From contig NC_018027.1 of assembly GCF_000266905.1 (NCBI RefSeq), positions 3,844,001 through 3,908,000 of the forward strand: a stretch of 64,000 nucleotides of DNA, in the 5' to 3' direction. Numbering within the stretch: position 1 is the stretch's first letter; every line of letters starts with the position of its first letter. This stretch comes from Mycolicibacterium chubuense NBB4 (GTDB lineage Bacteria; Actinomycetota; Actinomycetes; Mycobacteriales; Mycobacteriaceae). Under the pieces are notes generated by a model that did not search any database, was not told the origin of the DNA, and was given only the letters and a program-made list of their open reading frames with translations. The position numbers and the translations under genes were made by a program. Shown here in pieces: positions 3,275 through 60,560 of this stretch.

Positions 3275-3293
3275 ATGAGAATCTGATTCTCAT
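3275..3293. promoter_or_regulatory. GAGAAT-N3-ATTCTC operator, site 1
   Basis: ATGAGAATCTGATTCTCAT is a perfect 19-bp palindrome located 20 bases before the first gene of the Rieske operon and about 220 bases before the divergent amidohydrolase gene. The same core with a three-base spacer recurs at four other divergent promoters in this window. A TetR-type operator is the likely reading; the binding protein is inferred, not shown. Confidence 0.75.
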
Positions 3294-3313
3294 CGACGAG
3301 AGGAGGAACGGCG

Positions 3314-3862
3314 GTGCGAGTGCCCCCGCTGCCGGCGGACGAATGGGATGACGCCGTCGACGACGCCCTGTCCGCGATGCTGCCGCCGGAACGCCGCAAT
3401 CCCGAGAAGGCCGGCAACCTGCTGGCCACGCTGGTCCGTCATCCCAAGCTCACCCGCGCCTTCCTGCGCTTCAACCGCCACCTGCTGTTCACCTCGACCC
3501 TTCCGGCACGGTTGCGGGAGGTGGCCGTCCTGCGCATGGCGTACCGCAGCGATTGTGAATACGAGTGGCGTCACCACGTCCACATGGGGCACGACGTAGG
3601 TCTGACCGACGCGGACATCGACGGGATCCGCCGCGGCGAGGCCGGCGATGAACTGGACCGTGCGGTCATCGTGGCCGTCGACGAACTCGACGACAAGTCG
3701 GTGGTTTCCGACGCCACCTGGGCGACGTTGTCCGCCCACCTCGACGAGCGCCAGTTGATGGACCTCGTCTTCACCATCGGCTGCTATGGCTCGCTGGCCA
3801 TGGCCATCAACACGTTCGGCGTAGAACCCGACCCCGACTCCGACACCGACCCAGAGAGGTAG
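3314..3862 (+). CDS. carboxymuconolactone decarboxylase (CMD/AhpD-like) family protein
   Basis: Protein of 182 residues of the CMD family. The signature LPARLREVAVLRMAYRSDCEYEWRHHVHMG (residues about 57-87) is typical of the alkylhydroperoxidase-like branch found in actinobacterial catabolic operons. A single Cys in place of CxxC makes a peroxidase role doubtful; a lactone decarboxylase-like or hydrolytic role is more usual for this subgroup but unproven. The GTG start is preceded by GAGGAGG. It is the first gene of an operon with the Rieske oxygenase, which starts five bases after its stop, and lies directly behind operator site 1. Confidence 0.82.
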   Translation: MRVPPLPADEWDDAVDDALSAMLPPERRNPEKAGNLLATLVRHPKLTRAFLRFNRHLLFTSTLPARLREVAVLRMAYRSDCEYEWRHHVHMGHDVGLTDADIDGIRRGEAGDELDRAVIVAVDELDDKSVVSDATWATLSAHLDERQLMDLVFTIGCYGSLAMAINTFGVEPDPDSDTDPER

Positions 3863-3867
3863 ACACC

Positions 3868-5211
3868 GTGGCATTCTTTCCGAAACCCGCCGAGGGCAGC
3901 TGGACCGAGCACTGGCCCGACCTCGGGACCGAACCCGTGGACTACACGGATTCGATCGATCCCGAGCAGTGGCGACTCGAGCAGCAGGCGATCTTCCGGA
4001 AGTGCTGGCTGAACGTGGGACGGGTGGAGAAGCTCCCCAAGAAGGGCAGCTACTTCACTCGCGAGATGCCGTCGGCAGGCGTCGGCACCTCCGTGATCAT
4101 CGTCAGGGACACCGACAACGAGGTCCGCGCGTTCTACAACATGTGCCGCCACCGCGGAAACAAGCTGGTGTGGAACGACTATCCCGGTGAAGAAGTCTCA
4201 GGAACCTGCCGTCAGTTCACCTGCAAGTACCACGCGTGGCGCTACAGCCTCAAGGGCGATCTGACGTTCGTGCAGCAGGAGGGCGAGTTCTTCGATCTCG
4301 ACAAGGCCGACTACGGTCTGGTGCCGGTGCGATGCGAGGTCTGGGAGGGCTTCATCTTCATCAACTTCGACGACGCCGCCGAGCCCCTGATCGACTATCT
4401 CGGCGACTTCGCGAAGGGCCTCGAGGGCTACCCGTTCCACGAGATGACCGAAACCTATTCCTACCGTGCCGAAGTCAACTCCAACTGGAAGCTGTTCATC
4501 GACGCGTTCGTCGAGTTCTACCACGCGCCGATCCTGCACATGAAGCAGGCGGTCAAGGAGGAGGCCGACAAGCTGGCCGGCTACGGCTTCGAAGCGCTGG
4601 CCTACGACATCAAGGGGCGCCACTCGATGGTGTCCTCCTGGGGCGGCATGAGCCCGCCCAAGGATCCGAACATGGTCAAGCCCATCGAGCGCGTCCTGCA
4701 CAGCGGCCTCTTCGGCCCGTGGGACCGGCCCAAGATCAAAGGCATTCTGCCCGAGGAACTTCCGCCGGCGGTGAACCCGTCGCGCCACCACGCCTGGGGC
4801 CAGGACTCGTTCGAGTTCTTCCCCAACTTCACCTTGCTGCTCTGGGCGCCGGGCTGGTACCTGACCTACCACTACTGGCCCACCGGCGTGGACACGCACA
4901 TCTTCGAGTGCACACTGTACTTCGTGCCCGCGACCAACACCCGCGAGCGGCTCGCTCACGAGATGGCCGCGGTGACCTTCAAGGAGTACGCGTTCCAGGA
5001 CGCCAACACGCTCGAGGCCACGCAGACCATGATCAACACCCGTGTGGTCAAGGACTTCCCACTGTGCGACCAGGAGATCCTGCTGCGCCACCTGCACAAG
5101 ACGGCGTGGGACTACGTCAACGCGTACAAGAAGGAAAAGGGCCTGACCAACGGCTCGGACAATGGGAAAGCCAGCACGACGGCCAGCGAGAAGGACGCCA
5201 TCAATGTCTAA
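3868..5211 (+). CDS. Rieske non-heme iron oxygenase, alpha subunit
   Basis: Terminal oxygenase component of 447 residues. The Rieske [2Fe-2S] ligands are C93-x-H95 and C119-x2-H122. The mononuclear iron site is seen as D212, H219 and H224 (VEFYHAPILH), with a third ligand probably the Asp in FQDANTLE further on. Such enzymes hydroxylate, dihydroxylate or demethylate ring compounds with electrons from a reductase. No reductase gene occurs in the window; the nearest ferredoxins are at 34547 and 56069, so electrons must come from elsewhere. The GTG start has AGAGAGG upstream. The 3' end overlaps the next gene. Substrate unknown. Confidence 0.92.
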   Translation: MAFFPKPAEGSWTEHWPDLGTEPVDYTDSIDPEQWRLEQQAIFRKCWLNVGRVEKLPKKGSYFTREMPSAGVGTSVIIVRDTDNEVRAFYNMCRHRGNKLVWNDYPGEEVSGTCRQFTCKYHAWRYSLKGDLTFVQQEGEFFDLDKADYGLVPVRCEVWEGFIFINFDDAAEPLIDYLGDFAKGLEGYPFHEMTETYSYRAEVNSNWKLFIDAFVEFYHAPILHMKQAVKEEADKLAGYGFEALAYDIKGRHSMVSSWGGMSPPKDPNMVKPIERVLHSGLFGPWDRPKIKGILPEELPPAVNPSRHHAWGQDSFEFFPNFTLLLWAPGWYLTYHYWPTGVDTHIFECTLYFVPATNTRERLAHEMAAVTFKEYAFQDANTLEATQTMINTRVVKDFPLCDQEILLRHLHKTAWDYVNAYKKEKGLTNGSDNGKASTTASEKDAINV

Positions 5212-5533
5212 GTTGCCAGAAGAATTCGCCGATCTCGAGCGGTTCACCGACTGGTGCCTGCCCCACGAGGAGGACCGCTACCAGAAGCGGCTGTCCTCGA
5301 CGATGCAGGAGATGCAGGAGTTCTACGACGCCGCGATGCCCCGTCTCGAAGCGGTCATGGAGTACTGCGACGCCCGGTTCCCCCTCAACGGGATGCCCGA
5401 TGACGCCAAGGCTCTGATCCACATGATGCAGTCCCTGGTCAACGTGTCGTTCCCGGTCGAGGTGTGGAAGCAGCCACGGGTGCTCGACAGCGGCGCGGCC
5501 TATATCACCTGCATCAAGGAGCCGGTGGTCTAG
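5204..5533 (+). CDS. small conserved protein next to Rieske oxygenase
   Basis: Protein of 109 residues, acidic, with no family that I recognise. It overlaps the Rieske gene by eight bases and has AAGGA before its ATG, so it is translationally linked to the oxygenase. The middle is mostly helical-looking (MQEMQEFYDAAMPRLEAVMEYCDARF) with no transmembrane segment or signal peptide. A structural or accessory role for the oxygenase is an inference from position only. Confidence 0.75.
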   Translation: MSKLPEEFADLERFTDWCLPHEEDRYQKRLSSTMQEMQEFYDAAMPRLEAVMEYCDARFPLNGMPDDAKALIHMMQSLVNVSFPVEVWKQPRVLDSGAAYITCIKEPVV

Positions 5534-9245: not shown

Positions 9246-10685
9246 GGCTCAATCGGTCGCTGCGACACCTGATTGGTTGAGGGGTGTTGAGCGATGGGTT
9301 GTCGGGGTCCTGGTCGGGCGCGGTTGCCGGAGTCAGTGCGCGAGCGGTTCTGGGCGGCGGTGGCAGCAGGTCTGTCGCCGACGGCGGCGGCCACGGTGGC
9401 CGGCGTGCACGGCGCGACAGGGCGTCATTGGGCCCAACAGGCTGGTTATCGAGGTGAGTCGAAGCATTTCGGAATCCGGTACACAGCACAGCAGCGGGCG
9501 GTGTTCTGGACCGCGGTGAGATCGGCGGTGCCGCCGGCACAGGCCGCGGTGGTCGCTGGCGTGTCGGAGGCCGCGGCCCGACGCTGGCTGCAACAGGCTG
9601 ACCACGTGCCCAGAACCCCGTTTCCCGCTGAGGCTGATCTCGTTGCAGAAAGTGAGCTGACCTCTCGGGTTCGTGCACCGTTGCGCTTCGTGGAGCGGTG
9701 TCGGCTTGAGCAGCTGCTCGAACACGGCTACCCACCAGCACAGGCGGCAGCCTTGATGGGCCGTCATAAGGACACCATCAACCGGGAGATCGCCCGGGGA
9801 CAGACCCGCTCGGTGTATCGAGCCAGCATGGGCCAAGACGTGGCCGATGCCGCCCGTAAGCGCCCCAAAGTGCGCAAGCTTGAGGCCAACCCTGGGCTGC
9901 GGGCCGAGGTTCTGCAACGCTTGGAGACACGCAACAGTCCCGAACAGATCGCGGGCCGGCTGCGTCAAGACTTCCCTGACGATCCGGAGATGTGGGTGTC
10001 ACACGAGACGATCTACCAAGCCGTCTACGTTCAACCCCGCGGCGAGTTGGCCAAAGAGTTGAAGTCGGCACTACGCACCGGCCGGATCAAGAGAAAACCG
10101 CAGGGCCGCAATGAAATAGCCGATCGTAACCGGTTCAAGGCGGGCATGGTCGGCATCTCCGAGCGGCCCGCCGAAGCCGACGATCGCGCTATCCCCGGCC
10201 ACTGGGAGGGGGACCTGATCATGGGCGCGGGCAACACCAGCGCGATCGGCACCCTGGTCGAGCGCACCACGGGGTTCGTGATGCTGCTACACCTGCCCGG
10301 TGATCACACCGCCACCACCGTCGCCGCAGCGATGACCGCCAAAGTCCCCGAGATACCCGCAATCCTGCGCCGTTCACTGACCTGGGACCAGGGCACCGAG
10401 ATGGCGATGCACACCAACATCACCGAAGCCACCGGGCTACCGATCTACTTCTGCGACCCCCATAGTCCCTGGCAACGCGGCACCAACGAAAACACCAACG
10501 GACTGCTACGCCAGTACTTCCCCAAAGGCACTGACCTTGCGTTCTGGGGACCGGGATTCCTCGACCAAGTCGCCGCCGAACTCAACGCCCGACCCCGCAA
10601 ACGACACAACTGGCGCACACCCGCCGAAGAACTCGACCGACTACTCTCAGATCCGTCCACGTACGTTGCAGCGACAGCTTGAATC
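9246..10685 (+). mobile_element. IS30-family insertion sequence, apparently complete
   Basis: Element of about 1.44 kb with one transposase gene. The terminal inverted repeats are imperfect: GGCTCAATCGGTCGCTGC at 9246-9263 against the reverse complement of 10668-10685 (13 of 18 bases match). The transposase stop lies within the right repeat. No clear target duplication longer than two or three bases is visible. IS30 family elements are known to prefer palindromic targets, and this one lies against the right arm of a long inverted repeat. No passenger genes. Confidence 0.85.
9294..10682 (+). CDS. IS30-family transposase
   Basis: Intact DDE transposase of 462 residues. Two helix-turn-helix-like regions lie in the first 170 residues (AAATVAGVHGATGRHWAQ and AAALMGRHKDTINREIARG, the latter typical of IS30). 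The catalytic residues sit in GHWEGDLIMG (first Asp), LTWDQGTEMA (second Asp) and GTNENTNGLLRQYFPKG (Glu). No frameshift or internal stop is seen, so the element may be active. The ATG has GAGGGG about ten bases upstream. Confidence 0.95.
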   Translation: MGCRGPGRARLPESVRERFWAAVAAGLSPTAAATVAGVHGATGRHWAQQAGYRGESKHFGIRYTAQQRAVFWTAVRSAVPPAQAAVVAGVSEAAARRWLQQADHVPRTPFPAEADLVAESELTSRVRAPLRFVERCRLEQLLEHGYPPAQAAALMGRHKDTINREIARGQTRSVYRASMGQDVADAARKRPKVRKLEANPGLRAEVLQRLETRNSPEQIAGRLRQDFPDDPEMWVSHETIYQAVYVQPRGELAKELKSALRTGRIKRKPQGRNEIADRNRFKAGMVGISERPAEADDRAIPGHWEGDLIMGAGNTSAIGTLVERTTGFVMLLHLPGDHTATTVAAAMTAKVPEIPAILRRSLTWDQGTEMAMHTNITEATGLPIYFCDPHSPWQRGTNENTNGLLRQYFPKGTDLAFWGPGFLDQVAAELNARPRKRHNWRTPAEELDRLLSDPSTYVAATA

Positions 10686-10760: not shown

Positions 10761-11543
10761 CTATTTGATGTTCGCCTTCATCTGGTCGAGGTCCACCAGG
10801 ACCGGCCATCCGCCCACACTCAACGCATTGCCGTGACCGGTTTGGTGCACGTCGAACACCGACTGGATCGCGGCGTAGAAGCCCTGCACGTCCAGGGTCT
10901 GGTTCACCGCGCGTTTGGCCTGCCGCAGCGCGAACGACGGCATCGTGGCGATGTGCTCGGCGAGCGCCCGGGTCTCGGCGTCGAGCTGGTCGCGAGGCAC
11001 GACCTTGTTCACCATGCCGGTGCTGTGTACCTCTTCGGCGGTCATCGCCCTGCCGGTGAACAGGATCTCCTTGGCTTTGCGCGGGCCGAGTTCCCAGGTG
11101 TGTCCGTGGTATTCGACGCCACCGATGCCCATGAGCACCACCGGGTCGGAGAACTGGGCGTCGTCGGCGGCGATGATCAGATCGCAGGGCCAGCACAGCA
11201 GCAGACCACCTGAGATGCAGCGACCCTGCACGGCGGCGATCGAGGGCTTCGGCACGTTGCGCCAGCGCAAGGTGTACTCGAGGTAGCGCCTCGCCTCGTG
11301 CTCGATGATGAACTCCAGCGTGATCTTGTCCGGGACGGGCCCGCCGCCGCGGAGGTCGTGACCGGCCGAGAAGTGCTTGCCGTTGGCCCGCAGCACGATG
11401 ACCGCGACGTCGCGATCCTCTGCCGCCCGCGTCCATGCCGCGTCGAGTTCGTCGAGCAACTCCGGATTCTGCGCGTTGGCGGCCTCCGGCCGGTTCAGGG
11501 TGATCGTCGCGATCCGGTCGGTGACGTCATAGTCGATGTACAC
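10761..11543 (-). CDS. enoyl-CoA hydratase/isomerase (EchA family)
   Basis: Crotonase-fold protein of 260 residues. Visible are ATITLNRPEAANAQN, the oxyanion-hole segment HFSAGHDLRGGG, and CISGGLLLCWPCDLIIAADDAQF. In VLMGIGGVEYHGHTWELG the usual catalytic Glu positions are not clearly both kept, so hydratase, isomerase or hydrolase activity cannot be told apart. The start is the GTG at 11543 with GAGGA six bases upstream; reading further to 11633 lacks support. It is divergent from a TetR gene and shares operator site 2 with it. Confidence 0.88.
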   Translation of the reverse strand: MYIDYDVTDRIATITLNRPEAANAQNPELLDELDAAWTRAAEDRDVAVIVLRANGKHFSAGHDLRGGGPVPDKITLEFIIEHEARRYLEYTLRWRNVPKPSIAAVQGRCISGGLLLCWPCDLIIAADDAQFSDPVVLMGIGGVEYHGHTWELGPRKAKEILFTGRAMTAEEVHSTGMVNKVVPRDQLDAETRALAEHIATMPSFALRQAKRAVNQTLDVQGFYAAIQSVFDVHQTGHGNALSVGGWPVLVDLDQMKANIK

Positions 11544-11673: not shown

Positions 11674-11692
11674 ATGAGAATACTATTCTCGT
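11674..11692. promoter_or_regulatory. GAGAAT-N3-ATTCTC operator, site 2
   Basis: ATGAGAATACTATTCTCGT lies between the enoyl-CoA hydratase gene (130 bases away) and the TetR gene (54 bases away). TACTAT inside the palindrome fits a mycobacterial -10 element (TANNNT), so a bound repressor would block the promoter. This is the site next to a TetR gene, which makes that regulator the best candidate for the whole set. Confidence 0.75.
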
Positions 11693-11746
11693 GATGAGGA
11701 AGTTACAATCTCTGACACGTTGGCCGAGAGGGGGTCGAGGACCGTT

Positions 11747-12466
11747 ATGGCAAGGCGTTCTCCGGTACAGTCGGTTCATGTTCTCCCCAGTCGGTCTCCA
11801 GCTGAGCCTCCGGTGACCACCGCCAGCGAGGAGCCTGCCTGGAAGCAGCGCGCGGTCGAACGGTCGATCAAGACCGCCAAGCTGCGGGCCGCTCAACGGG
11901 TTCAGCGTTTCCTCGATGCCGCGCAGGCCATCATCATCGAGAAGGGCAGCACGGATTTCACCGTGCAGGAGGTCGTCGACCGTTCTCGTCAGTCGCTGCG
12001 CAGCTTCTACCTGCAGTTCGACGGAAAGCACGAGCTGCTGCTGGCCCTGTTCGAGGACGCACTGAGCCGATCGGCAGACCAGATTCGTGCCGCCACGTCC
12101 GGCCAGGAAGAACCGCTCGAGCGGCTCAAAGTCGCCGTCCAACTCCTGTTCGAATCCTCGCGGCCGGACCCGGCGGCCAAGCGGCCGCTGTTCACCGACT
12201 TCGCGCCGCGCCTGCTGGTGTCGCACCCGTCCGAGGTCAAGGTGGCGCACGCCCCCTTGTTGGCCCTGCTCACCGAGTTGATGGAAGAGGCCAGCGCCGC
12301 CGGCCAACTCCGCGAGGGCATCAACCCCAAGCGGATGGCGGCGATGACCATGCAGACGGTGATGTTCGTGGCGCAGTCCAGCGGCGACGCCGGCGACGGC
12401 ACCGCTCACCCCATCACCGCCGACGAGGTCTGGGACTTCTGCGCACACGGCTTCGCCGCCCTCTGA
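11747..12466 (+). CDS. TetR family transcriptional regulator, candidate master repressor
   Basis: Regulator of 239 residues. A flexible N-terminal tail of about 45 residues precedes the TetR DNA-binding domain: RFLDAAQAIIIEKGSTDFTVQEVVDRSRQS followed by LRSFYLQFDGKHELLLALFEDAL. The rest is an all-helical ligand domain. The ATG at 11747 has GAGG six bases upstream; a GTG at 11813 is a shorter alternative. An operator lies in its own promoter, so autoregulation is likely. The same operator recurs at other divergent promoters, which suggests it controls much of the window. Ligand unknown, possibly a CoA thioester as for many mycobacterial TetR repressors of lipid genes. Confidence 0.88.
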   Translation: MARRSPVQSVHVLPSRSPAEPPVTTASEEPAWKQRAVERSIKTAKLRAAQRVQRFLDAAQAIIIEKGSTDFTVQEVVDRSRQSLRSFYLQFDGKHELLLALFEDALSRSADQIRAATSGQEEPLERLKVAVQLLFESSRPDPAAKRPLFTDFAPRLLVSHPSEVKVAHAPLLALLTELMEEASAAGQLREGINPKRMAAMTMQTVMFVAQSSGDAGDGTAHPITADEVWDFCAHGFAAL

Positions 12467-12561
12467 TCCGAGAACCACACTCTCCGCGCTTCGAAACCCG
12501 GTGTGTGCGCTTCTGCGTGCCTCCAGCGTGCCCGTCGGTCCGTCCGCGCCGAATGAGAGGC

Positions 12562-39540: not shown

Positions 39541-39542
39541 GC

Positions 39543-51874: not shown

Positions 51875-52639
51875 TCAGCCTTTGGCGATCAGGCCGTCGA
51901 CGATCTTGTTGAAGTCGGCCGTCCCGAACGACACGTACTCTGCGAGGTTGGCGTAGTCGAGCGAGGCCATCACCGACCGCTCGAGTTGGATGTTCATCAA
52001 CCGCTTGGTGCTCTCGACCGCCTGCTGCGGCAGCGCCATGATCTTCTCGGCGCACGCGATCGCCTCGGCCACCGGATCGGCCACGACGTGGTTGGCCAGA
52101 CCGAGTTCCAGTGCGCGCGGTGCCTTGATCCGCACGCCCGTCAGCGCGAACTCCTTGGCCTGCAGCAGGCTGATCTGCGATCCCCAGACCAACGGGCCGC
52201 CGTCGGCCGCCACCAGGCCGATCTGCACGTGGGGGTCGGCGAAATGCGCAGACTCGGCCATGTAGACGATGTCGGACAGCGCCGCCAGGCTGCACCCCAG
52301 GCCGACGGCAGGTCCGTTGACCGCGGCGATCACCGGGATGCGGCAGCGCACCATGCCGATGACGAGGTCGCGTCCGTGCTTGATGGTCTTCGTCCGCAGA
52401 GCTTCGTCGCGCCGCAGCTCGTCGAGGTAGTTGAAGTCGCCGCCTGCCGAAAAGGCCCGGCCCGCACCGGTGATGACGGCCGCGCGGGCGTCGGCGTCCT
52501 CGTTGAGCTCGTCCCAGATCTTGGCCAGCCCGACGTGCAGCGCGTCGTTCACGGCGTTGAGCGCATCAGGGCGGTTCAGCGTGATGACGCGCAGGCCGCC
52601 CTCGGCGCGGACATCGATTTCGTCTGGCATTCCGTACAT
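51875..52639 (-). CDS. enoyl-CoA hydratase/isomerase (EchA family)
   Basis: Crotonase of 254 residues: VITLNRPDALNAVND, GRAFSAGGDFNYLDEL (oxyanion hole), AAVNGPAVGLGCSLAALSDIVYMAESAHFADPHVQIGLVAADGG. Asp/Gly in place of the two catalytic Glu suggests isomerase- or hydratase-like variation. AGGA five bases before the ATG. Separated by seven bases from the FadE pair upstream on the same strand, so it should act on their product. Confidence 0.9.
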   Translation of the reverse strand: MYGMPDEIDVRAEGGLRVITLNRPDALNAVNDALHVGLAKIWDELNEDADARAAVITGAGRAFSAGGDFNYLDELRRDEALRTKTIKHGRDLVIGMVRCRIPVIAAVNGPAVGLGCSLAALSDIVYMAESAHFADPHVQIGLVAADGGPLVWGSQISLLQAKEFALTGVRIKAPRALELGLANHVVADPVAEAIACAEKIMALPQQAVESTKRLMNIQLERSVMASLDYANLAEYVSFGTADFNKIVDGLIAKG

Positions 52640-52646
52640 GTATGTC

Positions 52647-53735
52647 CTAGCCTCCCAGTCCGAGAATTCTCGACGCGATGATGTTCTTCTGGATCTGCGA
52701 CGTCCCGCCCATCACGCTCTGCGCGCGGCTGTACATGTAGGCGCCGAACAATTCGTCGTCGCCGGTGCCCACCGTCCTGAGCGCTGCATGCCCGACAGAC
52801 TGCTCGACCCACGTCATCAGCAGTTTGTCGAGCGAGCCCTGCGGACCGTGAGTGAGCCCGTCGAGTTGCTCGGAGAGCCGCCGGCGCACGTGCAGCCGCA
52901 GCATCTCCGTCTGCACCCACGCCCACTGCAGTTCCTCGGGCGGGGCGCCGTCGACGCGAGACGCCATCTGGCGCACCGTCTTTCCGTACCGCGCCGAGAA
53001 ACCCAGCGTGGAGGGCTCCCGCTCATGGCTGACGACCGTCATCGCCAGCTTCCAGCCCTCCCCCGGCGCACCCACCATGTTCTCGGCGGGGACCCGCGCG
53101 CCGTCGAAACCGACCTGCCCGAATTCCTTGGTGACACCGCTGATCATCTTCAGCGGGCGTTGCTCGATCCCGGGCTGGTGCATGTTGACGATGAACGCCG
53201 AGATGCCCTTGTGCTTCGGCACGTCCTTTTCGGTGCGGGCCAGCACCAGGCACCAGTCCGCGACGTCGGAGTAGCTCGTCCAGATCTTGTGCCCGTGAAT
53301 GACGTACTCGTCACCGTCCCGGACTGCCGTCGTGGTCAACGACGCCAGGTCGGATCCGGCCCCGGGTTCGGAGAAGCCCTGGCACCACCGCTCGGTGCCG
53401 TTGATCATTCCGGGCAGGAACCGTTGCCGGAGTTCCTCGCTGCCATGGTGACTCAAGCCGACGACGAGGTAGCCCAGGCTCGGCCGCGCCGGCGCGCCGG
53501 CCTTGGCGATCTCCTCGTCGACGATGACGTCGTAGACCGGAGGCAGATCCTGGCCTCCGTACTCTTTCGGCCACGAGGTGCCGAAGAAGCCTGCGCCGAA
53601 GAGCGCCTGATGCCACTCGCCCGCCTTGGCCCAGTATTCGTCGCCGGAGGTCGGGAATCTGCCCTTCTGCTCGGTCAGCCAGGCCCTCAGCCGCTCCCGG
53701 AAGGCGGCCTCATCGGGGGAATCACGAAAGTCCAA
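52647..53735 (-). CDS. acyl-CoA dehydrogenase, catalytic-type subunit of a FadE pair
   Basis: Protein of 362 residues: WCQGFSEPGAGSDLASLTTTAV, YVIHGHKIWTSYSDVADWCLVLART, VVSHEREPSTLGFSARYG with a Glu at the expected base position, and GGTSQIQKNIIASRILGLGG at the end. It overlaps the smaller partner gene by 14 bases, so the two are made in equal amounts, as in alpha2beta2 FadE complexes. Same arrangement as 7183/8310. Confidence 0.92.
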   Translation of the reverse strand: MDFRDSPDEAAFRERLRAWLTEQKGRFPTSGDEYWAKAGEWHQALFGAGFFGTSWPKEYGGQDLPPVYDVIVDEEIAKAGAPARPSLGYLVVGLSHHGSEELRQRFLPGMINGTERWCQGFSEPGAGSDLASLTTTAVRDGDEYVIHGHKIWTSYSDVADWCLVLARTEKDVPKHKGISAFIVNMHQPGIEQRPLKMISGVTKEFGQVGFDGARVPAENMVGAPGEGWKLAMTVVSHEREPSTLGFSARYGKTVRQMASRVDGAPPEELQWAWVQTEMLRLHVRRRLSEQLDGLTHGPQGSLDKLLMTWVEQSVGHAALRTVGTGDDELFGAYMYSRAQSVMGGTSQIQKNIIASRILGLGG

Positions 53736-54537
53736 TGGTCAGCTCCTCCAGCTTCGCCGGCCACGTCTCGGTGGCGGCCAGCACTCGACGCAGATAGACA
53801 TGGGCCAGGCACTCCCAGGTGTTGCCGATGCCGCCGTGGACCTGGATCGACGTCTCGCACACCGTCATCGCGGCCCGCGCACAGTAGATCTTCGCGATGC
53901 GCCCCGCCTCGACCGCCTCGCGCACAGGCAGTTCGTCGACGGCCCAGGCGGCATGGCGCGCGACGCTGATCGATCCCTCGATCAGCGCCAGGCTCTCGGC
54001 GAGCAGATGCGCGACGGCCTGATACGAGCCGATCGTCGACCCGTACTGCTCGCGCACCTTGGCGTACTCGGTGGCCAGCGCGTGCGTGCCCCGCGCGGCG
54101 CCGACGATGTCGGCGGTCGTCGCGGCGAGCGCCAGCGCGTACCAGCGGCCCGAGTCCTCGTCGGAGAGCTCTCCCAGCTCGGACGGCGATTCGACCATTC
54201 CGGCAAGGCTTTTCGTCAGATCCACCGACACCGCCGCCTCGCCCGGCAGCTCCGCCCGGCGGCCGAGGCGGCGGTGCAGGTCGTCGGCCAGTACCGGTCC
54301 GAGGAACGGTACATCCACCAGGCGTCGGCCGAACTCCTCGGCGACGATGGCCACCTCGACCGCGGAGGCGCCGTCGGAGCGCAGGCTGCGGAACCCCGTG
54401 GCGTCGACGGCTTTCTCGAGCCGGGCGATGCGCGTCGCGTCGTCGAGGTCGGCGACCGACCCCGGACCCAGGTCCGCGGCCAGTTCCGCGGCGGCGTCGC
54501 GCAACTGTCGTTGTTCACTGGTCAGACGGACGTCCAC
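53722..54537 (-). CDS. acyl-CoA dehydrogenase, short partner subunit
   Basis: Protein of 271 residues: LTSEQRQLRDAAAELAADL at the N-terminus, EYAKVREQYGSTIGSYQAVAHLLAESLALIEG (flavin-contact region) and CETSIQVHGGIGNTWECLAHVYLRRVL at the end. Partner of the preceding-described dehydrogenase. The GTG has GGAGG five bases upstream, provided by the end of an intercistronic repeat inside the ligase gene. Confidence 0.9.
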   Translation of the reverse strand: MDVRLTSEQRQLRDAAAELAADLGPGSVADLDDATRIARLEKAVDATGFRSLRSDGASAVEVAIVAEEFGRRLVDVPFLGPVLADDLHRRLGRRAELPGEAAVSVDLTKSLAGMVESPSELGELSDEDSGRWYALALAATTADIVGAARGTHALATEYAKVREQYGSTIGSYQAVAHLLAESLALIEGSISVARHAAWAVDELPVREAVEAGRIAKIYCARAAMTVCETSIQVHGGIGNTWECLAHVYLRRVLAATETWPAKLEELTIGLS

Positions 54538-55957
54538 AGTTTCCTCCGCTCTTCGCGCAGGCGCTCAGCGCCCGCTCCCGTAACACTCGGCGAAGCACCT
54601 TGCCCGAGGGCAGGCGCGGGATCTCGTCGACGACGACGACCCGGCTCAGTCGCTTGTAGGACGCGAGCCGGTCGGCCACCAAGGCGGCGAGTTCGTCGGC
54701 GTCGACGGCGCCTCCGGCCTTGACCGCGGCGATGACGGCCTCGCCGTCGGCGGACGGCACACCGAAGACCGCACAGTCCTCCACGGCGGGATGTCCGTGC
54801 AGCACCGCCTCGATCTCGGCGGGCGCCACCTGGAAGCCGCGCACCTTGATCATCTCCTTGGCGCGGTCGGTGATCCGCAGCCACCCGTCGGTGTCGAGGG
54901 TGCCGACGTCCCCGGTGCGGTACCAGCCCTGCACGAACGCGCCCTCGGTGGAACTCTCCGGCAGATAGCCGGCCATCGCGGCTTCCGAGTGCACCTGGAT
55001 CTCGCCTTCGGCGCCGGGGCCCAGCACCTCCCCGGTGTCCAGCGACGCGATGCGCACGCTGACCCCGGGCACCGGCCGGCCGACCGTGTCCAACCGCGGA
55101 CGGTCGAGGTCGTTACAGGAGATGACGGGCAGTTCGCTGGCGCCGTAGGCCGTCACCCAGCGCACACCGGTGCGCCGGGAGACCGCCTCGGCCACACTGC
55201 CGGTGACCGGAGTGGCGCACCACATGATGTACCGCAACGAGGACAGGTCGTGGTCCTCCAGCCGAGGGTGTGCCGAGAGCGCCAAAGCGATGGGCGCGAC
55301 GGCCATTTCGACGGTGATGCGGTCGGACTCGATGTGGCGCAACATCGTGTCGATGTCGAACCGGCGATGCAGCCGGATCCATGCGCCGGTGTCGAGGGCC
55401 GTCGCGATGTTGAGCAGACCGAGGATGTGCGACGGCGGCGTCATCACCTGGATGCGGTCCGCCGATGTCAGGCCCAGCGCGCCGCGCCACTGACGTACCG
55501 CCGCCGACAGCGACGCGTGCGTGTGGCGCACCGCCTTGGGCATCCCCGTGGTTCCCGAGCTGAAGACGAAGACGGCGTCGGCGGCGGGCTTCACGGCCTC
55601 GGCCGACTCGGCCGCCCGCGGAGCCGGCGCCGGCGACTCGTCGAGATGCAGCATCGGCATGAGCTCGCCCAGCACGGGGTGGTCACCGACCGCGTGCGTG
55701 GGCTCGGTCAACGAGATCCCGTGGCGCACCTCGGCGGTCTTCCACGCCGGGCTCAGCAAGACCGCCGCCGCACCCAGGCGCCAGATCGCCTGCACCGCAA
55801 CGACGAACTCGGGGCGATTCGACGACATCAGCGCGACGCGCGAGCCGGGGGCCACTCCGCGCCGGTGCAACTCGACCGCCATCGCGCTTGCGAGAGCGTC
55901 GAGTTCGGCGACGCTGTGCTGCCGCTCCTCGAAGGCGAGCGCCATCCGCTCACTCAC
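54515..55957 (-). CDS. AMP-dependent acyl-CoA ligase, N-terminus apparently cut by a 2-bp frameshift
   Basis: Ligase of 480 residues: VFSSGTTGMPKAVRHTH (A3), AYGASELP (A5), GWYRTGDVGTLDTDGWLRITDRAKEMIKVRGFQVAPAEIE (A7-A8), PRLPSGKVLRRVLRERAL (A10 Lys). It activates an acid to its CoA thioester. Just upstream, another frame encodes VNIIHAIGEGAR, the typical beginning of such ligases; one extra GC in a GC repeat shifts the frame. Translation may start at GTG 55957, whose GTGA overlaps the stop of the short upstream frame. The last 15 residues come from an intercistronic repeat. Confidence 0.87.
   Translation of the reverse strand: MSERMALAFEERQHSVAELDALASAMAVELHRRGVAPGSRVALMSSNRPEFVVAVQAIWRLGAAAVLLSPAWKTAEVRHGISLTEPTHAVGDHPVLGELMPMLHLDESPAPAPRAAESAEAVKPAADAVFVFSSGTTGMPKAVRHTHASLSAAVRQWRGALGLTSADRIQVMTPPSHILGLLNIATALDTGAWIRLHRRFDIDTMLRHIESDRITVEMAVAPIALALSAHPRLEDHDLSSLRYIMWCATPVTGSVAEAVSRRTGVRWVTAYGASELPVISCNDLDRPRLDTVGRPVPGVSVRIASLDTGEVLGPGAEGEIQVHSEAAMAGYLPESSTEGAFVQGWYRTGDVGTLDTDGWLRITDRAKEMIKVRGFQVAPAEIEAVLHGHPAVEDCAVFGVPSADGEAVIAAVKAGGAVDADELAALVADRLASYKRLSRVVVVDEIPRLPSGKVLRRVLRERALSACAKSGGNCGRPSDQ
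54549..54569 (-). repeat. intercistronic repeat, copy 2 (read through)
   Basis: Minus strand GCTGAGCGCCTGCGCGAAGAG. Here the TGA of the other copies is out of use because the frame reads CTG AGC, so the ligase continues through the element. It ends 11 bases before the GTG of the next gene. Confidence 0.65.
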
Positions 55958-56019: not shown

Positions 56020-56036
56020 GGAGAATAGTATTCTCC
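56020..56036. promoter_or_regulatory. GAGAAT-N3-ATTCTC operator, site 6
   Basis: GGAGAATAGTATTCTCC is a perfect 17-bp palindrome between the ligase gene and the divergent ferredoxin gene. TAGTAT inside fits a -10 element. On the minus strand TAGACT at 56014-56019 is another possible -10 giving a nearly leaderless ligase transcript. Confidence 0.75.
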
Positions 56037-56068
56037 AATTACCAGAATGACAATGTCGAGAGAGGGTC

Positions 56069-56356
56069 ATGAGCGACGCTGAGGGCACCATCACCATCAC
56101 GCTGGACGGCAGCACCGCGTCGGTCTCGGGGAAGCCCGGCGAGACGCTGCTCGAAAGCGCCCGGCGTGCGGGCATGGGTCCGCCGTTCTCCTGCGAGGCA
56201 GGCAACTGCGGTACGTGCATGGCCATGTTGACGGACGGTAAGGCCACGATGCGGGTCAACGACGCGTTGACCGAGGACGAGGTCGCCGAGGGGTATGTGC
56301 TCACCTGCCAGGCGATTCCCGACACCGCGTCGGTGGCGGTCAGCTACGACGAGTGA
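56069..56356 (+). CDS. [2Fe-2S] plant-type ferredoxin
   Basis: Protein of 95 residues with CEAGNCGTC (C-x4-C-x2-C) and a distant LTCQ Cys, the ligands of a plant-type [2Fe-2S] cluster. GETLLESARRAGMGPPFSC is the usual lead-in. It is alone on its strand and converges on the CoA-transferase with a 13-base overlap. It could feed the Rieske oxygenase or a P450; no reductase is linked. Confidence 0.92.
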   Translation: MSDAEGTITITLDGSTASVSGKPGETLLESARRAGMGPPFSCEAGNCGTCMAMLTDGKATMRVNDALTEDEVAEGYVLTCQAIPDTASVAVSYDE

Positions 56357-57420
56357 ACCGACCGAGCCCCTGTTCCGGGGGCGTCGGCATGCTCGTCGAG
56401 CCGTGGCGGTGGCCGGTAGCCGGGCTCATAGCCTGCGATCCGGATCGGGCTTCCCACCAGTCGGAACCCTCCCGCGGTGATCAGCGCCTCGGGCGTCGCC
56501 GCGAGCGCCTCCGGCAGGGTGCGGACTGCGGAGACGGGGATGCCCAGCGGCCGTAACCGCGTCTCCCAGTTCGCGGCGGTGTCGGTCGCCAGCGCCGCAC
56601 CGACCACCGCCAGGACCTCGTCCCGCCGGGCCGCCCGTTCGGCCATCGTCGGGAACCCCTCGATCCCCGCCTCCGCGGCGAACGCGGCCCAGAACGCGTC
56701 ATGGGTGATGAACAGCGCCAGATAGCCGTCGGCGGTCGGGAACAACTGCGCGGGAACGTAATACGAGTGCGCACCATATGGGTGGCGGCGGGGCTCGACG
56801 CCGTCGTTGAGGTAAGCCGCGGCGCGATAGTTCAGCTGGGAGAGCATCACGTCACGCAGCGACACATCCACCTGTCCGCCCCGGCCGGACACGATCTGGG
56901 CCAGCAGGCCGAGCGCGGCGGTCAGTCCCGTCGAGTTGTCGGCCGACGAGTAACCGGGCAGGGTGGGCGGCCCGTCCGGGTCGCCGGTCATCGCCGCCAC
57001 CCCGGTCGCGGCCTGGATCACGTAGTCGAACGCCGGATCGTCGCCGCCGTCGAGGCCGAATCCCGTCATCGCCACGCAGACGATGCCCTCGTTGAACTCC
57101 TTGAGCGAGTCGTAGGTCAGGCCGAGACGGCGGATCGCCGACGGCTTCATGTTGACCAGCAGCGCATGCGAATTCGCGACGAGCTCGCCGAGCCTGCGCC
57201 GGCCTTCCGCTGAGCGCAGATCCAGGCACACGCTCTGCTTGTTGCGGTTGAGGCTCGCGAAATAACTGTCGCTGACCTGGCGCGAGATCTCGCCGCCCGG
57301 GGGCTCGATCTTGATCACCTCGGCGCCGAGATCGGCCAGCAGCATGGTGGCGTACGGCCCGGCGAGCATGACCCCGACCTCGAGGACGCGAATCCCGGCC
57401 AACGGGCCCACGGATGTCAT
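56344..57420 (-). CDS. CaiB/BaiF family CoA-transferase
   Basis: Class III CoA-transferase of 358 residues: LAGIRVLEVGVMLAGPYATMLLADLGAEVIKIEPPGG, LNRNKQSVCLDLRS, GFGLDGGDDPAFDYVIQAATGVAAMTGDPDGPP, and catalytic Asp in SSADNSTGLTAALG. The ATG at 57420 has GAGGG five bases upstream and lies just after an intercistronic repeat; an in-frame TTG at 57444 belongs to that repeat. Follows the luciferase-like gene. Confidence 0.92.
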   Translation of the reverse strand: MTSVGPLAGIRVLEVGVMLAGPYATMLLADLGAEVIKIEPPGGEISRQVSDSYFASLNRNKQSVCLDLRSAEGRRRLGELVANSHALLVNMKPSAIRRLGLTYDSLKEFNEGIVCVAMTGFGLDGGDDPAFDYVIQAATGVAAMTGDPDGPPTLPGYSSADNSTGLTAALGLLAQIVSGRGGQVDVSLRDVMLSQLNYRAAAYLNDGVEPRRHPYGAHSYYVPAQLFPTADGYLALFITHDAFWAAFAAEAGIEGFPTMAERAARRDEVLAVVGAALATDTAANWETRLRPLGIPVSAVRTLPEALAATPEALITAGGFRLVGSPIRIAGYEPGYRPPPRLDEHADAPGTGARSVHSS

Positions 57421-57432
57421 CGCTGCCCTCGG

Positions 57433-57453
57433 CTTTTCGCGCAAACGCTCATC
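57433..57453 (-). repeat. intercistronic repeat, copy 3
   Basis: Minus strand GATGAGCGTTTGCGCGAAAAG; its TGA is the stop of the luciferase-like gene, and the CoA-transferase ATG follows 12 bases later. Downstream CGAGGGC is shared with copy 4. Confidence 0.7.
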
Positions 57454-58405
57454 GGATTCGCTTCGCGAGCTCGGCGATCACCTCGCGCGTGCGATATTTC
57501 GACGCCACCAGCTCGTCGCGGGTCTCCCCGATCGGCAGCAGCCGCACGGACAGATCCGTCACCCCCGCATCCGCGAACTGCTGGAAGCGACGCAGGATCG
57601 ACTCCTCGTCGCCGGCGGCGCACAGATCGCCGACGTTGCGCGCGTCGCCGCGGTCCAGCAGCCGCTGATAGTTGGGCGACGTCTCGGCCTCAGCCAGGAT
57701 GCGGTTGGCCCGCTCCTTGGCCGCCTCGATCTCGGAGTTCGCGCAGAGGCACACCGGGATGCCCGCCACGATGCGGGGCGCGGGACGGCCGGCGTCGGCG
57801 GCGGCCTTCGTGATCTTGGGGGCGATGTGCTCGCCGATCGCCTTCTCGTCGGCCATCCACAGCACGGTGCCATCGGCATGCGCACCGGCGATCTGGAGCA
57901 TCACCGGCCCGAGTGCCGCGACGAGCACCGGCAGCGGCTGCTCTGCCCCGAGCACCGTCGGGTTGTGCACGGTGAAGTTGTCATTCTCGACGTCCACGTC
58001 ACCCGGCCCGGCGAGTGCGGTGTTCAGCACCTCGAGATAGTCACGGGTGTAGGCGGCCGGCTTCTCGTACGGAATCCCAAGCATGTCGCGCACGATCCAG
58101 TGGTGCGAGGGCCCGACGCCGAGCGCCAGTCGGCCGCCTGCCATCGCGTGTACCGACAGTGCCTGGCGGGCAAGGGCAATCGGATGCTGCGCCTGCAGCG
58201 GGACCACCGCGGTGCCGAGTTCGATCCGGGAGGTGTGGGCGGCCATCAACGCGACCATCGTCAGGCAGTCGAAGTCGTTGGGCACCTGGGGCATCCACGC
58301 GGTGTCCAGGCCGGCGGATTCCGCCCACTCGATGTCGGACACCAGCTTGCCGACCTTGCGCGACATGTCGCCGCGCTCGGCCCCGATCATCACGCCGAGT
58401 CTCAT
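57449..58405 (-). CDS. luciferase-like oxidoreductase, probably F420-dependent
   Basis: Protein of 318 residues: MRLGVMIGAERGDM, AGLDTAWMPQVPNDFDCLTMVALMAAHTSRIELGTAVVPLQAQHPIALARQALSVHAMAGGRLALGVGPSHHW. This N-terminal pattern and length fit the mycobacterial F420-dependent LLM families rather than FMN monooxygenases. It lies between the B12 subunit and the CoA-transferase genes. Possible hydride transfer to an unsaturated or keto acyl intermediate. Confidence 0.85.
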   Translation of the reverse strand: MRLGVMIGAERGDMSRKVGKLVSDIEWAESAGLDTAWMPQVPNDFDCLTMVALMAAHTSRIELGTAVVPLQAQHPIALARQALSVHAMAGGRLALGVGPSHHWIVRDMLGIPYEKPAAYTRDYLEVLNTALAGPGDVDVENDNFTVHNPTVLGAEQPLPVLVAALGPVMLQIAGAHADGTVLWMADEKAIGEHIAPKITKAAADAGRPAPRIVAGIPVCLCANSEIEAAKERANRILAEAETSPNYQRLLDRGDARNVGDLCAAGDEESILRRFQQFADAGVTDLSVRLLPIGETRDELVASKYRTREVIAELAKRIR

Positions 58406-58493
58406 GCCTCGTCCCTTTCCTTCGTCGAGTGTGCGGTCAGGGCCCGAAGACGACCGGAATGGCGCCCCGGGCGCACATTCGGCCGGACCGCCA

Positions 58494-58892
58494 TCATTCG
58501 GCCGCCTTCTCGGTCAACGCCCGCACGTCCCGCACCAGGTCCTCCAGCGACGTGCCGGTCGGAAAGACCGCCGCGGCGCCCGCGTCGAGGAGCTTCTGCA
58601 CGTCGCCCCCAGGGATGGTGCCGCCCACCACGACCGCGATGTCGCCTGCGTCAGCGGCCCGCAACGCGTCGACGGTGCGTTGCGTCAGCGCGACATGCGC
58701 GCCGGACAGGATCGAAAGCCCAACGAGTGCAACATCTTCCTGCAGCGCGATCGACACGATGTCTTCGATGCGCTGGCGGATGCCGGTGTAGATCACCTCG
58801 AACCCGGCGTCGCGCAGCGTGCGCGCCACGATCTTGGCCCCCCGGTCATGGCCGTCCAGTCCGGGCTTGGCCACCAATACGCGAACACCCAT
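58494..58892 (-). CDS. B12-binding small subunit of acyl-CoA mutase
   Basis: Protein of 132 residues that is one complete cobalamin-binding domain: GLDGHDRG (DxHxxG, H15 being the lower cobalt ligand), LSILSGAH (SxL) and VVVGGTIP (GG). Size and fold match the small subunits of split mutases such as isobutyryl-CoA mutase or archaeal methylmalonyl-CoA mutase. The ATG at 58892 is used; it follows the mutase large-subunit gene by 34 bases with an intercistronic repeat between. Confidence 0.93.
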   Translation of the reverse strand: MGVRVLVAKPGLDGHDRGAKIVARTLRDAGFEVIYTGIRQRIEDIVSIALQEDVALVGLSILSGAHVALTQRTVDALRAADAGDIAVVVGGTIPGGDVQKLLDAGAAAVFPTGTSLEDLVRDVRALTEKAAE

Positions 58893-58907
58893 CACTGCGG
58901 CCCTCGC

Positions 58908-58928
58908 TTCTTCGCGCAAGCGCTCATC
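58908..58928 (-). repeat. intercistronic repeat, copy 4
   Basis: Minus strand GATGAGCGCTTGCGCGAAGAA between mutase large and small subunit genes. The mutase stop precedes it by one codon, giving TGA TGA. GCGAGGGC follows and serves as ribosome site for the small subunit. Confidence 0.7.
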
Positions 58929-60516
58929 AGAACACCACCGGTTGCTGGAACTCCCCCCACACCGACTTCAGCGTGGAGACCATCTCACCCACCGTGCAGT
59001 AGGCATTGGCACAGTCGATCAGCTTGTGCATCAGATTTTCCTGCCCCTCGGCGGCTTCGGACAGCGCGGCAAGGGCCTCCTTCACCGCCAGCCCGTCACG
59101 GTCGGCCTTGACCTTCGCCAGCCGCTTGAGCTGGACGTCGCGGCCTTCGGCGTCGAGTTCGTAGGTCGCGATCTCCGGCGGCGGTTCGTCGGTGACGAAC
59201 CTGTTCACCCCGACGACGGGACGCTCCCCACTTTCTACGTCCTGGTGGATCTTGAACGCCTCGTCGGCGATCAGGCCCTGCAGGTAGCCGTCTTCGATAC
59301 AGCGCACCATGCCGCCGTGGGTTTCGAGATCGTGCATGATCTCGACGATCTTGGCCTCGGTGGCGTCGGTGAGCGCTTCGACGAAGTACGAGCCGCCCAG
59401 CGGATCGGCGACCTTCGTCACGCCCGTCTCGTAGGCCAGGATCTGCTGCGTGCGCAGGGCGAGCGTGGCCGATTCCTCCGACGGCAGCGCGAACGGCTCG
59501 TCCCAGGCCGCGGTGAACATCGACTGCACACCCCCGAGCACCGCCGCCATGGCCTCGTAGGCGACTCGCACCAGGTTGTTCTGCGCCTGCGGCGCATACA
59601 GAGACGCCCCGCCTGCCACACAGCCGAACCGGAACATCGATGCCTTGTCGGTGGTGGCGCCGTAGCGCTCCCGCACGATCGTGGCCCAACGGCGCCGTCC
59701 GGCACGGTATTTCGCGATCTCCTCGAAGAAATCGCCGTGGGTGTAGAAGAAGAACGAGATCTGCGGCGCGAACTTGTCGATCGTCATCCGGCCACGTTCG
59801 ACCACGGTGTCGCAGTAGGTGACGCCGTCGGCCAGCGTGAAGGCCATCTCCTGCACCGCGTTGGCGCCCGCGTCGCGGAAGTGCGCACCGGCCACCGAGA
59901 TCGCGTTGAACCTGGGGACCTCGGCGGCGCAGAACTCGATCGTGTCGGCGATCAGACGCAGCGACGGCTCGGGCGGCCAGATCCAGGTGCCGCGCGACGC
60001 GTACTCCTTGAGGATGTCGTTCTGGATCGTGCCGGTGAGCTTCTCCCGCGGAACGCCCTTCTTCTCGGCGGCGGCGACGTAGAACGCCAGCAGGATCGCG
60101 GCGGTGCCGTTGATCGTGAAGCTGGTGCTGATCTTGTCCAGCGGAATGCCGTCGAACAGAATCTCGGCGTCGGCGAGCGTGTCGACGGCCACGCCCACCC
60201 GGCCGACCTCCTCGCCGAATTCCGGGTCGTCGGAGTCGTAGCCGCACTGCGTCGGCAGATCCAGTGCCACCGAGAGCCCGGTGCCGCCCTGATCGAGCAG
60301 GTAGCGATAGCGCCGGTTGGACTCTTCGGCCGTGCCGAAGCCGGAGTACTGACGGAACGTCCACGTCTTGCCGCGGTAGCCCGAGGCGAAGTTGCCTCGC
60401 GTGAAGGGATAGGTGCCGGGCGGCGGTGGGTCACCGGCCCGATCGGCCGGTCCGTACACAGGTTCCAGCGGGATCCCGGAAGGGGTCTGAACTGGGTGAT
60501 CGGCTGGTGGGGTCAT
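58927..60516 (-). CDS. B12-dependent acyl-CoA mutase large subunit with methylmalonyl-CoA-mutase-type pocket
   Basis: Catalytic TIM-barrel subunit of 529 residues without a B12 domain. YPFTRGNFASGYRGKTWTFRQYSGF and GTIQNDILKEYASRGTWIWPP are typical. Y57, R175 and H212 fall on Tyr89, Arg207 and His244 of P. shermanii methylmalonyl-CoA mutase with identical spacing (118 and 37). Isobutyryl-CoA mutase has Phe and Gln at the first two. So the substrate probably carries a carboxylate. Split into two chains, unlike the usual bacterial enzyme. The ATG at 60516 lacks a ribosome site; TACGTT eight bases upstream suggests a leaderless transcript. Confidence 0.92.
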   Translation of the reverse strand: MTPPADHPVQTPSGIPLEPVYGPADRAGDPPPPGTYPFTRGNFASGYRGKTWTFRQYSGFGTAEESNRRYRYLLDQGGTGLSVALDLPTQCGYDSDDPEFGEEVGRVGVAVDTLADAEILFDGIPLDKISTSFTINGTAAILLAFYVAAAEKKGVPREKLTGTIQNDILKEYASRGTWIWPPEPSLRLIADTIEFCAAEVPRFNAISVAGAHFRDAGANAVQEMAFTLADGVTYCDTVVERGRMTIDKFAPQISFFFYTHGDFFEEIAKYRAGRRRWATIVRERYGATTDKASMFRFGCVAGGASLYAPQAQNNLVRVAYEAMAAVLGGVQSMFTAAWDEPFALPSEESATLALRTQQILAYETGVTKVADPLGGSYFVEALTDATEAKIVEIMHDLETHGGMVRCIEDGYLQGLIADEAFKIHQDVESGERPVVGVNRFVTDEPPPEIATYELDAEGRDVQLKRLAKVKADRDGLAVKEALAALSEAAEGQENLMHKLIDCANAYCTVGEMVSTLKSVWGEFQQPVVF

Positions 60517-60540
60517 CGATGGATAACGTACTTGCAAAAA

Positions 60541-60560
60541 ATGAGAATGCCAATACCGTC
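60541..60560. promoter_or_regulatory. degenerate GAGAAT half-site region
   Basis: ATGAGAATGCCAATACC keeps one full half-site; further GAGA half-sites occur at 60634 and 60651 (ATGAGATTC, TGAGAACG). They lie between the divergent mutase and SDR genes, like the perfect sites elsewhere. The assignment is tentative. Confidence 0.35.

Follow-up and report, generated by a model that had tools for sequence, protein, structure and literature searches.

A palindrome shared by promoters of a catabolic island in Mycolicibacterium chubuense NBB4 as the predicted operator of a TetR-family regulator

What reads the 15-base-pair (bp) palindrome GAGAAT-N3-ATTCTC that recurs at promoters of catabolic genes in Mycolicibacterium chubuense NBB4, and which genes does it control? 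The question arises from a stretch of 64,000 nucleotides (C3:3844001-3908000, contig C3 being NC_018027.1; hereafter the window) of a genome of 6.34 Mb in 3 contigs; positions without a contig prefix are those of the window. A preliminary description of this DNA, made from its letters, had proposed that the palindrome marks an undescribed catabolic regulon and pointed to the TetR-family protein encoded at 11747-12466. From the sequence comparisons set out below, the palindrome is very probably the operator of this protein, which would keep its own gene and the promoters of a catabolic island of about 133 kb repressed, with release by a compound of the pathway.

A pattern scan located all five perfect copies claimed for the window, at 3277-3291, 11676-11690, 46153-46167, 50213-50227, and 56021-56035. 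With up to 3 mismatches allowed, the window holds 24 matches, as against 8.6 on average and at most 16 in 100 shuffles. Perfect palindromes of the same 6-3-6 design number 54 in the window, and the GAGAAT half-site accounts for five of these, the other 14 half-sites listed having one occurrence apiece. The scan of the whole genome that had been proposed as a check returned 7 perfect copies, starting at C3:3767204, 3800807, 3847277, 3855676, 3890153, 3894213, and 3900021, versus none for the reversed pattern used as control, and all seven are confined to 133 kb (C3:3767204-3900035). Allowing 1 mismatch gives 13 sites, 9 of them in C3:3764399-3900035 and 4 scattered, with the control again at zero; in a few other genomes the reversed pattern does occur, as single copies. 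The non-coding share of the window is 5.4% by predicted gene calls, and all five window copies lie between divergent genes. The earlier statement that every copy does so thus holds for the window and fails for the genome, where the copy at C3:3767204 sits between tandem genes.

The same placement is seen in relatives. For 12 genomes of the genus, 79 of the 80 listed sites were surveyed (some of these genomes hold further, unlisted copies). None of the 79 falls within a called gene: 47 are flanked by divergent genes, 32 precede a single gene, and none lies between convergent genes. In 8 genomes of two other genera, 31 of 32 perfect sites are outside genes and 1 is inside, giving 110 of 111 for the 20 genomes combined. 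Homologs of the Amidohydro_2 gene at C3:3765991-3767181 have a site 22-25 bp before their start in 11 of the 12 genus genomes and in all 8 others; the exception, G289, is a genome where one copy was not listed. Other neighbours that recur beside the palindrome in relatives are tetR, the carboxymuconolactone decarboxylase (CMD) gene of the first window site (S3, 3277-3291), and the FadD gene of the last (S7, 56021-56035). Short palindromes do arise by chance, and 25 genomes of other genera that lack a strong tetR match hold 1-2 copies, but the empty control in this genome, the near-exclusive placement outside genes, the constant spacing to tetR described below, and the narrow distance to the Amidohydro_2 gene in 19 of 20 genomes leave a negligible probability that the copies are chance events or the ends of mobile repeats with no regulatory meaning. 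That explanation was rejected on the control counts, and the outcome is the reverse of a motif equally frequent at random or coding positions, which the preliminary description had named as the result that would count against it.

Because the site S4 (11676-11690, GAGAATACTATTCTC) precedes the tetR gene, the product of that gene is the first candidate for the binder. It is encoded at 11747-12466 on the plus strand (a 217-residue version starts at 11813) and contains the TetR_N helix-turn-helix domain (PF00440, 31.2 bits versus a cut-off of 24); its score of 43.5 bits for the ScbR family NF041196 is below the curated cut-off of 150. Among named database proteins, its nearest relative comes from Mycolicibacterium vaccae (95%). 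When the tetR-P450 stretch was compared with plasmid sequences, 4 records matched, all of them only partially. Among the 80 best of 399 relatives, whose titles are nearly all Mycobacterium or Mycolicibacterium, a perfect palindrome is found at -128 to -149 from the start of the 217-residue version in all 80 loci, and at exactly -137 in 71. We also inspected 180 bp upstream of 20 distant tetR genes, of which one is the divergent gene of G178 in the own genus and 19 come from genomes of eight other genera (two of these genomes contributing two copies each); 14 have a perfect palindrome, 4 have one with a single mismatch, and 2 have none (G369 and G384). In an alignment of 24 TetR sequences, Ser61, Leu62, Arg63, Phe65, and Tyr66 of the predicted recognition helix are invariant, and mean column identity is 93% for residues 27-81 compared with 72% for residues 82-217. 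A DNA-binding part more conserved than the remainder is what would be expected if the operator stays constant while the ligands may change.

A regulator encoded elsewhere in the genome could bind the palindrome, TetR 11747 being a regulated passenger. The three regulators compared with the motif (TetR 11747, IclR 46262, and TetR 48697) are a part of the genome's set, the region itself having further TetR genes that include 21689 and 34749, and seven genomes of the genus retain tetR with fewer than two palindromes. We nevertheless consider this improbable, given the fixed palindrome before all 80 close orthologs of tetR, its presence with at most 1 mismatch before 18 of the 20 distant ones, and the fact that the sole remaining copy in G429, as in G448, directly precedes tetR.

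Co-occurrence was assessed in 646 genomes, 297 of the genus and 349 of other genera, with a strong tetR match defined as an expectation value (E) below 1e-80; these lists, like the tallies below for IclR, TetR 48697, and the second type of element, were compiled by hand. At least two copies of the palindrome are found in 238 of 245 tetR-positive and 1 of 52 tetR-negative genomes of the genus, and in 51 of 64 tetR-positive and 2 of 285 tetR-negative genomes of other genera. Several points weigh against TetR 11747 as the binder. The seven tetR-positive genus genomes with fewer than two copies are G026, G056, G063, G089, G178, G206, and G286, of which G056, G089, G178, and G206 have none; 13 of the 64 tetR-positive genomes of other genera also have fewer than two, with none in G390, G493, G500, G628, G643, and G649. 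Conversely, G148 (700 contigs, 7% contamination) has 8 copies without a strong tetR match, to which the 25 tetR-negative genomes with 1-2 copies may be added. Since the genomes are related, the Fisher values are not independent tests and stand for strong correlations only, and because the pathway travels as a set, co-occurrence alone cannot separate the regulator from a target. Several targets in the window have degenerate sites only. Furthermore, the structure model of the protein (mean predicted local distance difference test score, pLDDT, 72; predicted template modelling score, pTM, 0.58) is weak at the recognition helix, residues 62-71 being below 50, which makes it uninformative on DNA contacts.

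A rival binder is the IclR-family regulator encoded at 46262-47026 on the plus strand, which is preceded by the perfect site S5 (46153-46167, GAGAATGTGATTCTC) and for which tetR would be one target among others. Of 98 genus genomes, 76 have two or more copies, and precisely these have an ortholog of it, which the other 22 lack; in this sample from the genus it tracks the motif more tightly than TetR 11747 does. Outside the genus the picture is different. Among the 64 TetR-positive genomes of other genera, an IclR relative at E 1e-20 is found in 27 and none in 37, with no identity above 50% among the matches listed; 26 of the 51 that have at least two copies lack such a relative, one of them with 14 copies. 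Only 1 of the 79 surveyed sites (in G020) flanks an IclR gene. An IclR gene beside mhp-like genes does recall the MhpR/IclR regulators of aromatic pathways, but the family consensus sequences GTNCG-N5-6-CGNAC and TGRAACA-N1-2-TGTTYCA are unlike the palindrome when compared by eye (PMC8222616). IclR 46262 was dropped as binder on its absence from the 26 motif-rich genomes, and a role for it as the protein behind the motif appears very unlikely. As to the other candidate, TetR 48697, 16 of the 76 motif-rich genomes in the genus have no match to it at E 1e-40. Confinement of the motif to one island, the fixed site before tetR, its tracking of tetR across the genus and beyond, and the evidence against these two regulators all favour TetR 11747, the protein originally singled out, as the predicted binder.

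The architecture of the sites suggests how repression could operate. The TANNNT sequences reported earlier in three of the five window palindromes are indeed there (TACTAT at 11676, TAGTAT at 56021, and TAACAT on the minus strand at 50213), and TANNNT occurs on at least one strand of the palindrome in 66 of 79 surveyed sites; binding would therefore cover the -10 box. When the palindrome was scored at each offset of 15-45 bp around 86 sites (172 positions), the highest peak was found at 22 bp, with a mean of 4.28 of 12 matches versus 2.81, and 12 of the 172 positions at this offset have at least 9 matches versus 0.02% elsewhere. A partner with at least 8 matches at 22 bp accompanies 22 of the 86 sites, and 4 of the 7 in the own genome. 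In the window, predicted weaker partners lie 22 bp beyond S4 (11698-11712, 8 of 12 positions), S6 (50235-50249, 9 of 12), and S7 (56043-56057, 9 of 12). As counterpoints, the score is also raised, to a lower level, at 21, 23, and 28 bp, none of these having positions with 9 or more matches, and orthologous sites are numerous among the 86, so that some events enter the peak more than once, which does not apply to the four in one genome. We envisage that one TetR dimer sits on each perfect palindrome and that at some promoters a second dimer occupies the weaker palindrome two DNA turns away, the bound protein blocking RNA polymerase at the -10 box, or at the -35 box in the second type of element discussed below.

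Degenerate sites extend the set of predicted operators. A site with 2 mismatches at 12470-12484, just past the tetR stop codon, lies before the genes for a cytochrome P450 (12693-13904, plus strand) and a mycofactocin-coupled short-chain dehydrogenase/reductase (SDR; 13945-14784, plus strand; TIGR03971, 389 bits versus a cut-off of 300), both predicted targets. In 65 of 80 loci the 120 bp at the end of tetR include a site with 2 mismatches or fewer, compared with 2.1% of random 120-bp stretches, and 12470-12484 can therefore be regarded as a probable worn operator for these two genes. Two further candidates with 2 mismatches each are spaced 22 bp apart, at 19772-19786 over a -10-like TAGCAT box and at 19794-19808 (GAGAATGTCATATTC) over a -35-like ATGACA of the minus strand. 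In 40 of 43 loci, a site with no more than 3 mismatches lies upstream of the epimerase-like ortholog at this place, and GAGAATGTCATATTC or its -TCC variant occurs in 10 of the 12 listed. Of the two degenerate copies named in the preliminary description, the one at 19794-19808 thus lies at a place conserved in relatives, and the one near 60541 is better read as a related, second kind of element than as a worn copy.

This second element, here called class 2, occupies 60543-60557 before the B12 mutase genes, has 3 mismatches to the palindrome, and reads GGTATTGGCATTCTC on the minus strand, with a -35-like TTGGCA placed 17 bp from a TANNNT (TACGTT at the mutase). The exact sequence has 2 genomic copies, both in the island, one before the mutase and the other before the FadD gene at C3:3767220-3768833; at up to 2 mismatches there are 27 genomic matches, mostly scattered, versus 4 for the control. 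In the 1.5 kb before the mutase match, exact GGTATTGNCATTCTC is found in 17 of 18 loci, our genome included, and the remaining locus (L281) has a one-base variant. Five of the 18 loci have two copies, and where they show the second one, the window has a degenerate candidate (GATAGTGCCGTTCTC, 60652-60666, minus strand). Since an ATG follows TACGTT after 8 bp, a leaderless mutase mRNA starting at 60514-60516 is predicted, and the large mutase subunit probably begins at this ATG, 19 codons upstream of the gene-caller start.

Most simply, class-2 elements would be asymmetric operators to which the same TetR binds, in keeping with their distribution: they are present in 112 of 148 genus genomes, that is, in 112 of 122 TetR-positive and 0 of 26 TetR-negative ones. 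The conserved GGTA and TTCTC ends lie outside the -35 hexamer (exact in 17 of 18 mutase loci), and at the FadD and 19772-19808 promoters a half-site of GAGAAT or GAGAGT type follows 22 bp along. A second protein, or plain promoter strength with no TetR operator involved, would account for these elements with a probability somewhat below an even chance. With the palindrome they share a single half-site, their GGC spacer hardly varies, and TTGGCA with TANNNT 17 bp away explains part of the conservation. Moreover, a perfect palindrome is found next to the mutase ortholog (89-91% identical), in the same intergenic region, in 4 of 8 genomes of other genera, and all four retain the exact class-2 element at the same distance to the coding sequence, so the two elements are not interchangeable there; replacement of the class-2 element by the palindrome at the sister-genus mutase was rejected accordingly, both being present. 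In G645 the palindrome (L377:8619) lies 28 bp from the class-2 element, an offset that is also a minor peak of the scan above and that favours a connection with TetR, and in the other three it lies 129-131 bp away and 32 bp from the divergent gene, which it may serve. The suggestion that the regulon perhaps includes the B12 mutase is supported through the conserved class-2 element, with assignment of that element to the same TetR as the predicted link.

A TetR regulon is a known kind of system, of which this particular member appears to be new. We found no description of the motif in open-licence PMC literature, searched mostly by listings for the palindrome letters, Mycolicibacterium TetR regulons, DitZ, diterpenoid degradation, and cholate or terpenoid regulators, in agreement with the regulon having been called undescribed. 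The closest parallel is KstR2, a TetR repressor of mycobacteria and rhodococci for cholesterol rings C and D, which has a 14-bp palindrome near its own gene and at divergent catabolic operons in one cluster, is likewise shared with Rhodococcus, and shows motif-to-start distances such as 22 bp (PMC3068626). The KstR2 operator is AnCAAGnnCTTGnT, in contrast to GAGAATNNNATTCTC here, so that the GAGAAT half-site with its 3-bp spacer differs from the printed motif as stated earlier, and the KstR2 regulon comprises 15 genes, the island here being larger (PMC3068626). To KstR, which is related to KstR2, TetR 11747 has distant similarity only (E 0.003-0.004). The 14-bp KstR palindrome is different from the motif as well.

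MftR of M. smegmatis, the TetR protein of the mycofactocin operon with long-chain acyl-CoA effectors, also has a palindromic operator (PMC8728441), and our predicted targets include a mycofactocin-coupled SDR. Its operator lies within TCCATTCTGGCACTCGATGCCATATAT, and the MftR palindrome T-N2-GGCA-N5-TGCC-N2-A, compared by eye, does not match our motif (PMC8728441). If the palindrome were identical to motif X, described for the Rv0767c ortholog G155_05115 of a phytosterol-using Mycobacterium (PMC6593523), the regulon would not be new. Motif X, too, is palindromic; a comparative analysis linked it to this mycobacterial TetR protein, whose gene has a copy close to its start, and it precedes P450, SDR, and dehydrogenase genes. 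It stands before 14 operons, however, including those for a steroid delta-isomerase and for alcohol and aldehyde dehydrogenases, a set that differs from the targets here; the distinction is drawn from the target genes alone, the letters of its logo being given only in a figure (PMC6593523). On these grounds we hold it very doubtful that the two motifs are one. Rv0767c is located beside cyp123 and cyp51. SRTF1 is another steroid TetR (PMC7807495), and further mycobacterial TetR motifs are shown as figures in PMC4482099.

The genes beside the sites indicate what the regulon may do. The leftward target predicted for S3 (GAGAATCTGATTCTC) is an Amidohydro_2 protein homologous to DitZ (1758-3053, minus strand; PDB entry 8uyr, E 2e-112), the site lying between this gene and the rightward run, which opens with a CMD-family protein (3314-3862, plus strand; PF02627) followed by a protein like the alpha subunit of Rieske oxygenases (3868-5211, plus strand). 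All 8 genomes examined from two other genera have a site before the CMD-family ortholog. The starts of the Rieske alpha genes at L011:13245-14867 and in the window (3868-5533) look alike by eye, and each is beside a gene of about 110 residues, the one in the window without a match to a Pfam family. Between the S3 and S4 gene sets, a low-scoring gene call at 9756-10682 has a start that resembles, from its letters, an IS30-type transposase.

At S4, which would be autoregulatory, the predicted leftward target is an EchA-like enoyl-CoA hydratase (10761-11543, minus strand; CoA, coenzyme A). An acyl-CoA ligase of FadD12 type (17349-18962, minus strand; NF009921, 1019 bits versus a cut-off of 850) comes just after 18968-19777 of the same strand. 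S5 would serve, besides IclR, a run of 17 minus-strand genes (26357-46118) with an MhpC-like hydrolase first; those of the 17 that were searched include an MhpA-like hydroxylase, a KstD-like protein, a luciferase-like monooxygenase (LLM), a cyclase, a P450, an M24 protein, and an amidohydrolase. The creatinase/M24 peptidase-family gene (29720-30856) is unusual for a ring-degradation cluster, and a low-scoring plus-strand call (42775-43524) lies inside the run. The predicted targets of S6 (50213-50227, GAGAATGTTATTCTC) are the MeaB GTPase (49282-50166, minus strand; PF03308) and an SDR (50265-51029, plus strand) whose ortholog adjoins the palindrome in several relatives. For S7 (GAGAATAGTATTCTC), the predicted leftward unit (51875-55945, minus strand) encodes an EchA-like protein, two acyl-CoA dehydrogenase-like proteins, and a FadD ligase, 51875-52639 and 53722-54537 being named by eye from their letters, and the predicted rightward target is a 2Fe-2S ferredoxin (56069-56356, plus strand). 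The mutase operon behind the class-2 element (56344-60516, minus strand) encodes a CaiB-like CoA-transferase, an LLM-like oxidoreductase (57449-58405, named by eye), and the small and large mutase subunits.

Outside the window, two additional sites of the island with 1 mismatch lie 43 bp and 30 bp upstream of predicted genes. The latter gene encodes a P450, whose orthologs in G101 and G086 have a perfect palindrome 35 bp upstream. The product of the former (C3:3763486-3764355) has 289 residues, is rich in Ala and Glu at its start, and matches no Pfam family at E 1e-6. A further site, S2, is predicted to serve acyl-CoA dehydrogenases and a run (C3:3801052-3806440; L010:17052-19713, L011:1148-2440) with two adjacent Amidohydro_2 proteins, a Rieske ferredoxin, and a Nuo51-type flavin mononucleotide (FMN) oxidoreductase. 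The make-up of this run is like that of the three-component Mn/Fe monooxygenase AibH1H2GF. It differs in an interposed gene for an alpha/beta hydrolase-like protein, and in the PDB its first subunit is closest to 8sm7 (E 3e-41), which belongs to the diiron relatives in PMC10811679, ahead of 6m2i and 6m1w (E 4e-30 to 3e-24), which represent AibH1H2 (PMC7782822).

The large mutase subunit (58927-60516) has 2-hydroxyisobutyryl-CoA mutase (HCM; 4r3u, E 1e-150) as its best PDB match. In the alignment, its RQYSGFG and ASRGTW segments align with the Tyr and Arg of the human mutase, not with the Ile and Gln of HCM. We take these to be the active-site residues of methylmalonyl-CoA mutase and of HCM, respectively. 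Retention of the methylmalonyl-CoA mutase Tyr and Arg makes a carboxylate-bearing substrate likelier. DitZ, for its part, is presumably involved in resin-acid degradation. Homologs of DitZ, AibH1H2, and MeaB with the B12 mutase among the targets weakly suggest that a bulky acid, branched or ring-bearing (polycyclic), is broken down step by step through CoA-dependent reactions, and the releasing ligand would then be a CoA thioester or an acid of the pathway. A bolder and doubtful extension, which we put forward tentatively, is a pathway for a bulky branched or polycyclic plant acid that is genus-wide and partly family-wide in actinobacteria and missing from the searched literature. It would combine an amidohydrolase-fold dinuclear oxygenase, Rieske and P450 oxygenases, a DitZ-like thioesterase, and a dedicated B12 mutase under one TetR with two operator classes, namely -10 palindromes with a partner dimer at 22 bp and a -35 element with one half-site.

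What appears new in the organization of these promoters is the weaker partner palindrome at 22 bp, the placement of predicted operators over -10 boxes, and the second, -35-overlapping element. From the 22-bp partner rule and the class-2 element follow exact operator predictions that are open to testing. If the proposal is true, a regulator and a predicted regulon can be assigned to a catabolic island whose tetR gene was found in eight further genera of the sample and, within the genus, in 245 of 297 genomes. Among the predicted targets, the B12 mutase and the homologs of DitZ and AibH1H2 offer a direct route to the substrate, and the compound that releases TetR, being likely a compound of the pathway, would lead to it as well.

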